Of a stretch of 64,000 bases of DNA, positions 24,389-61,100 are shown in pieces (the first letter of the stretch is position 1; every line of letters starts with the position of its first letter). The stretch is from Onchocerca volvulus. Its lineage: Eukaryota > Nematoda > Chromadorea > Rhabditida > Onchocercidae. A program made the position numbers and the translations under genes. The stretch covers positions 9,608,888-9,672,887 of the forward strand of contig HG738138.1 of NCBI GenBank assembly GCA_000499405.2. The letters are read 5' to 3'. Below the pieces are notes generated by a model. It saw nothing but the letters and a program-made list of their open reading frames with translations, did no database searches and had not been told where the DNA came from.

Positions 24389-26805
<2,417 letters not shown>

Positions 26806-52841: not shown

Positions 52842-55531
52842 ATGTCTGGCAATGATCTTACGCGTGATGCAATGACTGAAGTCGTGAAAATGGTTGGATG
52901 TGAGAACAAGGATGATAATATGGATAATATTCGCTCTGGCGTGGTTCGTCCAAGGCAAAGATTACTTTCACTTTCTGTGCCTCGTAAGTTCTTTCAAAAT
53001 ATTCCGATATTTAGCGAGGTGAATGGTCCAAGTTATGCTTTTACTTTCACATGTTGTTTTGATTAACATAGCTTGGCATTAGTTAATAGAAAAAGATATT
53101 TGGGTTTAATTACCTTTCATCATTTTTGATATATTTAATTAAGTTTGCTACATTTTTTATGATATGTCATTTTATGTTTTATTAAAAGTTTCTCGGTTTT
53201 CGAGTCTTCTTCATCTATTCTGATTTTTTCTGTCTTTTTAAAAAAATATTTTCAGCAATGCCTTGGTTTGGTATTGATATAGGAGGCACACTAGTCAAAC
53301 TTGTTTACTTCGAGCCAGAGGATCATGCAAGTTTTTCAATTGTGCAGAAATTACGTAGAATCGTAGAACAGCACAGATTATCACATTCAAAATTTCTGTT
53401 AATATCGATTTTTCCACTGTAACGCTCATCTGTACATTGCAGAATGATTTTATTGAAAATGAAGAAGAAATCTTACGACGTAGGAAAATTCAACGGTATC
53501 TTGTAACAAGCAAAGCCTATGGCGGTAGTGGTGTGAGAGATGATCATCTACGTTTGTGTAATGTCGGAATCAATGTTAGTTTCAGTTACCAATATAGTTT
53601 TTTTTATTTTATTTACTGATTTTTTTTAGTAGTGTTAGAATGAGAGATCCCAAAATTTTCATAATAGAGTAGGTTTAGTCGGGAAATATTTTTTCGAAAA
53701 AATGGTCAATGTCTAAAATATTTGAAACTGTACATGCCATAGCAAAATTAATGAATTCTATTAATGTTAAATTCATTTGGATTTGGAAAAACAAAAAATA
53801 TGATAAGAGGCGCTTAAGTACTTCGCTTTTCATCCGCTTTATTCAGGGCAGAGTTGGCACAATACATTTTATTCGATTTCCGACGGACAGAATGCTTGAT
53901 TTTGTACATTTGGTTAAGAGGAAGGGATTCGCCGAAATGAGCAGTACAGTGTGTGCTACTGGGGGCGGCTCTTTAAAATATGCTAAGGAGGCAACGGTTT
54001 GTCCTTTTCTTTTTTGGAAAAATTGCATTAAAAATGAGTTCATTTAAAATCGATTGAATAAAACATTTCTTTTCAAGCTATTATTGAATTTTTTTGCAGT
54101 TAATTAATATTCATTGGGAGTCTCTATTACCTTTTGTTTTTATCAGGAAGAAAGGCAAAATTGTTTTTTTAGGATTTGGGTTTGCAATTACACAAAACAG
54201 ATGAACTCGAATCTCTGATTAAGGGTATTGAATTTATTGCTGCAACTAATCCTGATGAATGCTATTATTATGAGAATCCTTTGGATGACACTTTGTGTAG
54301 AAAAGTAATTTGGTATGTTACATATGGCAAATCATCGTTTTTTGATTTAATTTTAGGACGGTTCTCTAAGGTCATGGAATTTGTAGGCGATGGTCACACG
54401 GTCGTTGCTCAACATCGGATTTTGTTCCAGAAAGCGAAAAAAAAGATGGCTTGCAATATCCGTACATCGTTTGCAATATTGGTAGTGGTGTATCGGTGCT
54501 AGCTGTACGTGGCCACAATCAGTTTGAACGGATTGGAGGCAGTAGGTAGTAGTTTTCATGACTATATAGTAATTTCCCAAATTTATGTAAATAAATGAAT
54601 AAATAAAAATATTTATATATTTTCTAATTATTGAATACAACAAATTATTGAATACAAAATTTCAGCATTGGTGGTGGTTTCTTTCAAGGTATATGTGCAG
54701 TTATGTGCGGATGCGAAACATTTGAAGAAGCTATTGAGTTAGCATCACGAGGAGATAATAAGAATGTTGATAAGCTTGTGAAAGATATTTATGGCTCAGG
54801 TTATGATCAAATGGGACTTGCAGCAGATGTTATTGCTGCTAGGTGATTTTTACACACATTTCTCTATATGCCAAATCTTTCTGCCTTGTTTTATATCGTT
54901 TAATTATAGCTTTGGAAAAATATACAATAAGAAAGATCGCGATAAAGCACGAATTGAAGACCTTGCCCGGTCGGCTCTCGTCACTACAACGAACAATATT
55001 GGTTCAATTACATTTAATGGAGCGAAAACTTGCGGAATTGATCGGATTGTTTTTGTTGGTAATTTTCTTTTATAAAAAATATTAGATGTTCGGTATACTA
55101 ATAATTCGATTCGCCTCAACATATCATGTTAGTCCTTAATTTTGACTTTACAGTTCTTAAATATTGCTGTATATTTTGTAAATAACATTTCAGGGAATTT
55201 CCTGAGAGTAAATCCTATTGCTGCAAGATTACTTAGTAATGCTATGGATTTTTGGTCACAAGGAACGAAAAAAGCACTATTTTTAATACATGAAGTAAGA
55301 ATTTTTTGACCAGTGAAATTTTTTCAGCCATCCCTTTATTAGTAGCAGATATATTGTTCTTTGAAATTTATAACTGTTCTTCATATAAAGGGTTATTTTG
55401 GTGCGGTTGGATGCTTGGATAAGTTGGTCGATGTTACGGAGACGAGAAGACGAAAACGTGCTGAAAATCAACAGCAGGAAAACAGTACTAATATCAGAAA
55501 TTTGAAAGGATTGGAACTATCACAGGAGTAA
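52842..55531 (+). CDS. pnk-1: pantothenate kinase (CoA biosynthesis, first step)
   Basis: Exons: 52842-52983, 53256-53326, 53443-53574, 53847-53996, 54173-54312, 54387-54545, 54666-54842, 54910-55058, 55194-55294, 55391-55531; 453 residues. The enzyme phosphorylates pantothenate with ATP and is feedback-controlled by acyl-CoA in animals. It follows animal type II PanK closely: [20 protein letters not shown] (start of the ASKHA ATPase fold), [104 protein letters not shown]. About 48 residues precede the conserved start. The second intron begins with GCAAGT rather than GT. The 54312/54387 splice is the least certain; it was chosen because it alone keeps frame into NIGSG. The C-terminal tail ([15 protein letters not shown]) is lineage-specific. 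The symbol follows C. elegans pnk-1 by analogy. Confidence 0.93.
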
Positions 55532-58134: not shown

Positions 58135-61100
58135 ATGATAGATTTTACAGTAGAACATTTTTGTTCTATATTCTTCCGGTCAGTTTTATTAATGGTCCCA
58201 ACAGTTGTGGTTCTTTCATTCTTTGATCAATCTGTCGGTTTTAATCGTTACTATGTGAGCTGTTTGCTCAAGATTTTCGAGGTGATATTTTTTATCCTAA
58301 TAGCATGACAACCATTATCTGGTGAAAAAACATTTCATATTTGATCAGAAAAAATCACATTTTTTTGCTTAATTTATGTTTTGATCCATTAAAAAATAGA
58401 AATGATTTATAGTGGAGCGCTCGACAAATACGCTTATCAGCAAAGGAAAAAAGCCAAAATTCACTGAATCTATGCACGAAGGTTGATAACAGTAGCTGTA
58501 CTGATGATTCGGATCTCGAACTGGAACATTTGACTCCTTTTGATGATGATTTTACCGGTGAAAAGGTAATAAAAGGTCGGAAAAGAAGACATTCTGGACC
58601 AAGTAAGTCAATTTTCTTTTACTGAAGTTTCTCCCTTTATAATCTATTAAAAATGTTTATGGACATAATAAAGAAGTTTGGTACGCTGATTGTTTAATCC
58701 TGCAAAGAATATTTTATTGCAATCTTCCTTTCTTTTTGTTAGAGGGAATCATGAAGATTGTAATGGAGCTTATGAAGGATGGTTTAGATATCTAGATCCA
58801 TATCCCATTTCATCTGAAAAGTGTATAGATTGCATTCCTAGCTGGTCTTTAGATGCTGGACCGATTAGATTTTTCGTCTTTGACTCTTCTTCTGGTAAGG
58901 ATATTTTTCCAAATCAAAAGATGACTGATACTTTTAAAAAACAATTTCATAAATTAATACAAGATAATTCTGATAAACCTACGTGGTTTTTAACTCATAA
59001 ACCGCTTTGGGGATCCCCAAAGAAAGAATTTCTAACACTAAAGAGCCATGGCAATCTTACACAAATTGAAGCTTAAAAAAAAAAAAAATTTCCCAGAATT
59101 ACCGCAACTGTGAAGATAAAACCGGAAATATTTCTTCAGGGATAATATTTCGCGAGACATCGATGCATTTTGATGATGAAAATGGGCAACAAATAGCGAA
59201 CATTCGGGGTTGGGCGGTTGTACGCGACAGTATGCATCTTGTCAAGGTCTTGGGTTAAGTATCATAATAGGCAAGAAATATCATAAGAATAAGCGATTAG
59301 ACATGATGTTTGTTAAAAAGAGGCTGTTATAATCATATAGCGTGGGAATAGTTCTATTGAAGCGGATTTTTTGAAAATTTGTTCAGTTTACTGCTGGTGC
59401 CTTAGAACACTTGATTTTATACAAAGTATTCTGTTTACATTCTTGCGATGATTTTGTCACTTTAACTTATAATAATTTCAGGCAGGCATTGAGGCGGTTA
59501 TCCAGGATGACGTAACCAGTCGGTTTGAAGCTGAACAGCTCGTCTCGTGGAACATGCTCACTCGGACTAGTTTATCTTTCAATCAGTTTATCAAGTATGC
59601 TTTGGGACTTTCTGTGATCTGACTTAATCGGACTGAGTTTAGCACATGTTTCTACTATATTTTTTGCAGTTGGAAGCTGTCGATTATTTGGGCGTTAGGT
59701 TTTTTGTTTCGATATACAATTTTACTTCCGATGCGTTTGATTCTATTACTTACTGGTGTTGGCTTCATGATTGTTAGTACGGCTGTGATTGGATTATTGC
59801 CGGAGGGATCGCAGAAGCGATGGTTCAATGAACGTTGTCTGTTATGTGGTTATCAGATCCTATCTAGTTGTGTCTCTGCCGTCATCACATTCAATAATCG
59901 TGAAAATCGAGCTCGAAATGGAGGTAGATATTTTTTATGTCATTCAAGCCACATTATTCATATCTGTGCAGTATGTCCTATGTATGACTTCCAAAATAAA
60001 TGATTTTTTTAAGGAATTTGTGTTGCAAACCATACGTCACCGATAGATGTAATGATACTTAGCACGGACTGTGCGTATGATTTAGTTGGACAGCGTCATG
60101 GTGGTTTCCTCGGGATTATGCAGCTCGCCCTTGGTAGAGCAAGTTCTCATATATGGTTTGAACGAAGTGAAGCTCGAGATCGTTCATTTGTTGCAGAAAA
60201 GTAAGTCATTTCCAATTTTTTATAAGATTTTCCTGAAAATACTGTGAATTACATACACGGATTAAATATTGGCTAAATCAGTACGTTACACGTAAGATGT
60301 AGCCTAAATTCACAAACAAATTATGGTTTAGGAAAAGATGCATGTAGATATGTTCACAGCACTTTTAGGAAATTTTTAGAACTTTTATCTTGCAAATAAT
60401 CCTTTTCGAGCCATTTGCATACTTCATGATTAAATCTAGATTGAAGGAACATGTCGACAATAAAAATTTGCTTCCAATTTTGATTTTTCCTGAAGGTACA
60501 TGCATCAATAATACATCAGTGATGATGTTCAAGAAAGGATCATTCGAGGTGTGATATATTTATATTATTTATTTTATGAATATAAAGTGCATTTTCTCAA
60601 GCAACTTTATATTAACATGTTGGAGTAATAATTTAAGGTTGGAACAACAATCTATCCGATTGCAATGAAATACGATTCTCGTTTTGGTGACCCATTCTGG
60701 AACAGCAGCCAACATGGCTGGTTTGAGAATTGCTTTCGGATGCTTACTTCGTGGGCTATCATATGTGATGTTTGGTATCTGGAACCTATGAAGAAATTTG
60801 TAAGTAGTTCTTCCATTTTATAAGCAAAGAAGTAAGATGGTCTACATTTAATGAAATTTTAAAATCTTATGTGTAAAAACAAGTCATGGTAATCTTATAA
60901 TGATAACGAAATTATAAAACAGGAAATAAGCTTTGTTACTTCAAGAATGTACTATGGAGAATGAGTGAATTTTTATTAATTTGAAAATTCATTGGTTTTA
61001 AAATCACTTGATTCGATATCACGATGTAGAAGAATTTTTTTGTTAATTTGTGGTTCATAATTTAGTTCATGCTCGAGGAATATAATATGAATTTTTGTTC

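Follow-up and report, generated by a model that had tools for sequence, protein, structure and literature searches.

A probable nuclear Wolbachia transfer in a GPAT intron of Onchocerca volvulus: an internal metallophosphoesterase fragment in decay

In this study we ask how a stretch of bacterial-looking DNA came to lie inside an intron of a GPAT gene of Onchocerca volvulus, the river-blindness worm, whose bacterial symbiont is Wolbachia, and whether it is anything more than a fossil. The window, by which we mean the whole stretch of DNA that was analysed, covers 64 kb of a 25,485,961-base contig in a 94.7-Mb assembly of 115 contigs; in the examined text of PMC5310847 the 25.5-Mb scaffold OM2 is given as the X chromosome of O. 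volvulus. The exons of the host gene were placed by tblastn with three nematode proteins, and all features described here lie on the plus strand. The coding exon 5' of the insertion (58413..58602, of an acl-4-type GPAT, ending in KRRHSGP and 100% identical to the O. ochengi GPAT model P0123) is followed by an intron of 537 bp (58603..59139) with donor GTAAGT and acceptor TTTCTTCAG, its limits being set by the tblastn exon ends and frame-consistent splicing. The exon 3' of the insertion (IIFRETS...HLVK) occupies 59140..59246. Further GPAT exons were found at 59482-59594, 59670-59923, 60014-60200, 60440-60548 and 60638-60799, and the matches of P0123 run on past these to about 62193. Over the aligned part the GPAT residues of the window are 100% identical to P0123. 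For the Pfam, PDB and relatives searches we used a spliced GPAT model that omits the exon 59140-59246 and takes an acceptor at 59486. It carries the acyltransferase domain PF01553 at 1.2e-26 (exons within 59482..60799); the names among the best 120 of its 2788 relatives are glycerol-3-phosphate acyltransferase, ACL-4 and ACL-5, and a PDB sequence search with it gave no match. The filarial GPAT matches on either side bear out the first-pass annotation, which had placed the bacterial piece in an intron between animal GPAT exons of a filarial-type host.

That annotation had read about 500 bases of the intron as a broken bacterial calcineurin-like metallophosphoesterase gene with both ends missing, decaying after its transfer, and had proposed a BLASTN comparison with Wolbachia as a check. 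Here this comparison aligned window positions 58652-59074 (contig 9,667,539-9,667,961 on scaffold OM2) with L002:5959-6382 of wOo, the Wolbachia of the cattle parasite Onchocerca ochengi, at 406/424 identical columns (96%) and with one 1-base gap. The source gene in wOo is an intact ORF of 417 codons (L002:5461-6714), of which the worm carries an internal third, in the same orientation as the GPAT gene and with both gene ends absent. The enzyme family holds as well, Metallophos PF00149 matching residues 13-108 of a 128-aa frame with an E of 1.2e-6. Relative to wOo the insert has 17 substitutions and a one-base deletion that breaks the frame; the reported frameshift is thus present, although nearer to 58692 than to 58695. 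The in-frame TAA reported at 59073 also exists but sits at 59074-59076, within an A-run, and it was created where this A-run replaces Wolbachia sequence, not by a point change within the well-aligned part. Truncated at both ends, with one base deleted and its frame closed, the piece does show the decay that had been claimed for it. Might it nevertheless be a functional, domesticated phosphoesterase gene of the worm? In favour of such a gene, 128 codons can still be read through the frame 58690-59073 without a stop. What is left, however, amounts to about a third of the gene with a broken frame, and the PF00149 match spans profile positions 62-161 of 191 only, leaving the catalytic domain incomplete. 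Without a start, without an end and with its frame broken, the piece therefore cannot make the enzyme, and we regard a domesticated gene as extremely improbable.

The left end of the Wolbachia piece is abrupt at 58652, the preceding 60 bases being no nearer to wOo than chance (18,070/20,000 random stretches were as good). The A-run leaves the right end uncertain; close identity to wOo is lost within it, at 59074. The homology is carried across the A-run by a profile built from 30 Wolbachia genes (nhmmer, 4.8e-126 for 58653-59098), and pairwise alignment with wOo prolongs the right end to 59109. In controls of this extension, 130/20,000 random wOo stretches aligned equally well at any position, and 38/30,000 were as good when the start offset was held within 5 bases, that is, in register. 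When the A-run was left out the control was weak (1369/20,000 as good), and the extension therefore rests on the register, on the gene profile and on the host-like sequence from ~59110. We read 59074..59109, by its in-register similarity to wOo, as the A-run with a probable decayed tail of the piece, the homology probably running over the A-run to about 59109. The last part of the intron (59110..59139) is probably the host's own 3' end, judging from its translation CEDKTGNISSG, which resembles the SEDNVRDISSG extension of the B. malayi ACL-4 model P0125. Of the interval first proposed, 58640..59139, the Wolbachia piece itself stands, but its secure start is 58652, its close identity ends at 59074, and 59139 marks where the host intron stops. 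A separate observation concerns splicing: P0125 begins the IIFRETS exon further upstream, with that same extension, in a reading frame that the end of the Onchocerca intron also permits. An alternative acceptor for this exon is a possible reading of the comparison.

The piece comes from Wolbachia, most likely one of the Onchocerca type. A pattern scan of a collection of bacterial genomes, a method limited to close relatives, gave 17 stretches that matched a pattern and one confirmed relative, namely wOo, at 94% protein identity. In a tree of the insert with the 30 best Wolbachia genes, wOo is joined to the insert with a support of 99, in agreement with the donor named in the first-pass annotation, which proves right in its essentials. 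The source gene was matched in 38/41 genomes of the genus Wolbachia that were searched, and of the 505 relatives of the wOo protein the highest named among the best 120 are Wolbachia proteins. A search with the 128-aa frame among proteins of similar length yielded 2 short proteins of 4 candidates, one of them labelled as Wolbachia of Bemisia tabaci. Another protein labelled Bemisia tabaci (P0031, SP49.7) shares 58% identity with the wOo phosphoesterase, the match covering 95% of the query, and may be symbiont sequence or a transfer. The PDB sequence search gave two chance-level matches for the insert and none for the wOo protein.

Other origins of the piece were considered. A phage origin was rejected, no match being found among 50,697 phage records. 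A repeat or mobile element was likewise rejected: in searches that skip simple repeats and common words, the insert (searched as 58600-59200) and its right flank each matched their own place in the window alone in the worm assembly. Further Wolbachia sequence was looked for in the 64-kb window. The two weak wOo matches found elsewhere (34 bp at 26471, E 1.9e-4; 58 bp at 55133, E 0.008) are comparable to the one match of the reversed-window control (E 6.7e-4).

We consider the piece to be a nuclear Wolbachia transfer (NUWT) that was inserted in an ancestor shared by O. volvulus and O. ochengi and has been decaying neutrally, a reading to which we give a probability of roughly 93%. The piece nests with Wolbachia genes, it has GPAT exons on both sides in a chromosomal contig, and it is truncated and degraded compared with the donor gene. 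Among the worm-assembly matches of 12.4 kb of wOo there is no Wolbachia chromosome, and no result of this analysis contradicts the reading. On this reading, about 423-458 bp from inside the metallophosphoesterase gene of a supergroup C donor entered the intron of the GPAT gene, which today lies on the X-chromosome scaffold, perhaps through the repair of a DNA break. The piece, if it is transcribed at all, would be transcribed together with the GPAT intron around it and then presumably spliced out, and its decay would be neutral. By far the likeliest state of the piece, as far as can be judged from the sequence, is that of a neutral intronic fossil.

The O. ochengi gene model suggests an age for the insertion. 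P0123 carries, between the same pair of GPAT exons, 50 residues of the Wolbachia piece, which are identical to the window translation and match wOo at 49/50 (the insert has I where wOo has V). Of the 18 differences between the insert and wOo, 11 were polarised to the wOo side and 5 to the insert side, with 2 unresolved, against the single outgroup L025, by which some assignments may be wrong. In the examined text of PMC5310847, wOv and wOo are given as 99.51% identical, which by simple arithmetic would lead to ~2 differences over 424 bases; 11 differences on the wOo side therefore point to a transfer before wOv and wOo parted. From P0123 and these polarised differences, we hold it most likely that the insertion is older than the split of O. 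volvulus and O. ochengi; the case for an age beyond that of O. volvulus is stronger than we had expected. Given the 100% identity, contamination of the assembly behind P0123 by O. volvulus DNA is possible, and no sign of it was seen. Any NUWT shared in this way serves as a dated record that an infection took place. Since the intron around this piece can be aligned, a single PCR would suffice to score Onchocerca species for the insertion, among them O. flexuosa, which is free of Wolbachia.

Preparations of O. volvulus DNA contain live Wolbachia. An assembly error, or Wolbachia contamination fused into the worm scaffold, has this in its favour, as well as the assembly of wOv from the same project as the O. 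volvulus genome (PMC5310847, examined text). Three observations speak against it: the piece differs from wOo by its substitutions and its deletion, it is confined to one intron with coding exons on either side, and the O. ochengi model holds the same piece between the same exons. We judge an assembly error very unlikely; the support that the O. ochengi model lends to the junctions is indirect.

If the piece is a NUWT, might a part of it have become an exon? The 50 residues in P0123 (residues 95-144, matching window 58747-58896 at 100% by tblastn) correspond to a potential cryptic exon of 150 bp within the Wolbachia piece (58745..58894), predicted in the O. ochengi model. Spliced in as a cassette, it would add 50 residues of bacterial origin to a minor isoform of GPAT, before the acyltransferase domain. 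It speaks for such an isoform that the public model P0123 includes exactly this cassette, that its 150 bp keep the frame on either side, and that its donor at 58894 scores 6.65, the best of 17 GT sites in the intron and within the range of the GPAT donors (4.74-8.28). These scores come from a small position weight matrix that we built ourselves, the donor range being taken from the same 8 GPAT donors and the acceptors from 7 GPAT acceptors. On the same scale, however, the cassette acceptor reaches 5.17, ranking third among the intron's 27 AG sites but under all 7 GPAT acceptors used (5.28-11.41) and far below the normal acceptor at 59140 (10.49). Near-identical splice signals stand in the wOo gene itself, and the signals of the cassette have therefore arisen by chance. 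The cassette is also absent from 7/7 other public nematode models that were aligned, although those worms need not carry the insertion. Gene finding in O. ochengi was not guided by RNA-seq according to the examined text of PMC5310847, and P0123 may come from that annotation or from another. We take the cassette exon for an artefact of gene prediction that has a slight chance of proving genuine, and consider an exonised isoform unlikely. If it were true, this would be an exonised endosymbiont fragment in a host gene of lipid synthesis. For the annotation of filarial genes the piece is instructive, since it illustrates that gene models can take up bacterial DNA as an exon that is false or, possibly, real.

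The 12.4 kb of wOo matched the O. volvulus assembly at 27 places, including the piece in the GPAT intron, with identities of 75-100%, a spread that suggests transfers of very different age. For 20 of these loci (L004-L023, the GPAT-intron insert included) the junctions were compared with wOo by eye. No target duplication was seen in this survey; three of the 20 (L004, L008, L014) have long A-runs at the junction or close to it, and L011 has a TA repeat there, from which we draw no mechanism. Two of the loci, L021 and L022 (G000:C3:14,113,477 and 14,092,884), contain one and the same Wolbachia piece of 74 bp in opposite orientations, some 20 kb from each other and with matching flanks, which looks like an inverted duplication after insertion. 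At two other places, L009 with L013 (G000:C5:10,540,778-10,543,654) and L015 with L019 (G000:C3:7,663,673-7,668,414), Wolbachia pieces that correspond to separate regions of wOo stand at a distance of 2.5-4.5 kb from each other, a hint of clustered insertion or of rearrangement of larger transfers.

Nuclear Wolbachia DNA is well documented in this worm. In their examined texts, Cotton et al. (PMC5310847) describe 531 putative nuwts in O. volvulus, which they term largely nonfunctional, and Vancaester et al. 2025 (PMC12693587) 653 regions of nuclear Wolbachia transfer, the C-derived NUWTs in Onchocerca having a mean length of 434 bp. At the published BLAST cut-off of 1e-15 the piece described here should be detected, and it is probably in the published NUWT tables. 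The examined text of these two papers does not name its intronic position, the O. ochengi model or the cassette exon, and the locus is likewise unnamed in the titles and visible abstracts of the papers found on Onchocerca NUWTs, the Wolbachia metallophosphoesterase, intronic transfer and exonization; the supplementary tables may well list the piece.

How does the locus compare with known systems? Set against its source gene, the Wolbachia metallophosphoesterase (PF00149, 417 aa in wOo), the copy in the worm is a non-working fragment of its interior. A similar case is that of D. immitis, where residues about 330-480 of P0041 ('Cyclin-dependent kinase-like') form a ~150-residue tail of Wolbachia phosphoesterase. 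The same Wolbachia gene has got into a gene model of a filarial host, as in the GPAT gene. In contrast to the GPAT piece, however, the host gene of P0041 is another one, its Wolbachia piece is longer, and its nearest relative is L025 (81%, 125/154 columns), so that the tail is most likely a separate transfer event that got into the model. In conclusion, the piece in the GPAT intron resembles the published NUWTs of the same genome in being short, Onchocerca-Wolbachia-like and fragmentary, without any difference in kind: it is in our judgement a real NUWT of ordinary size, and an ordinary one for the O. volvulus genome.
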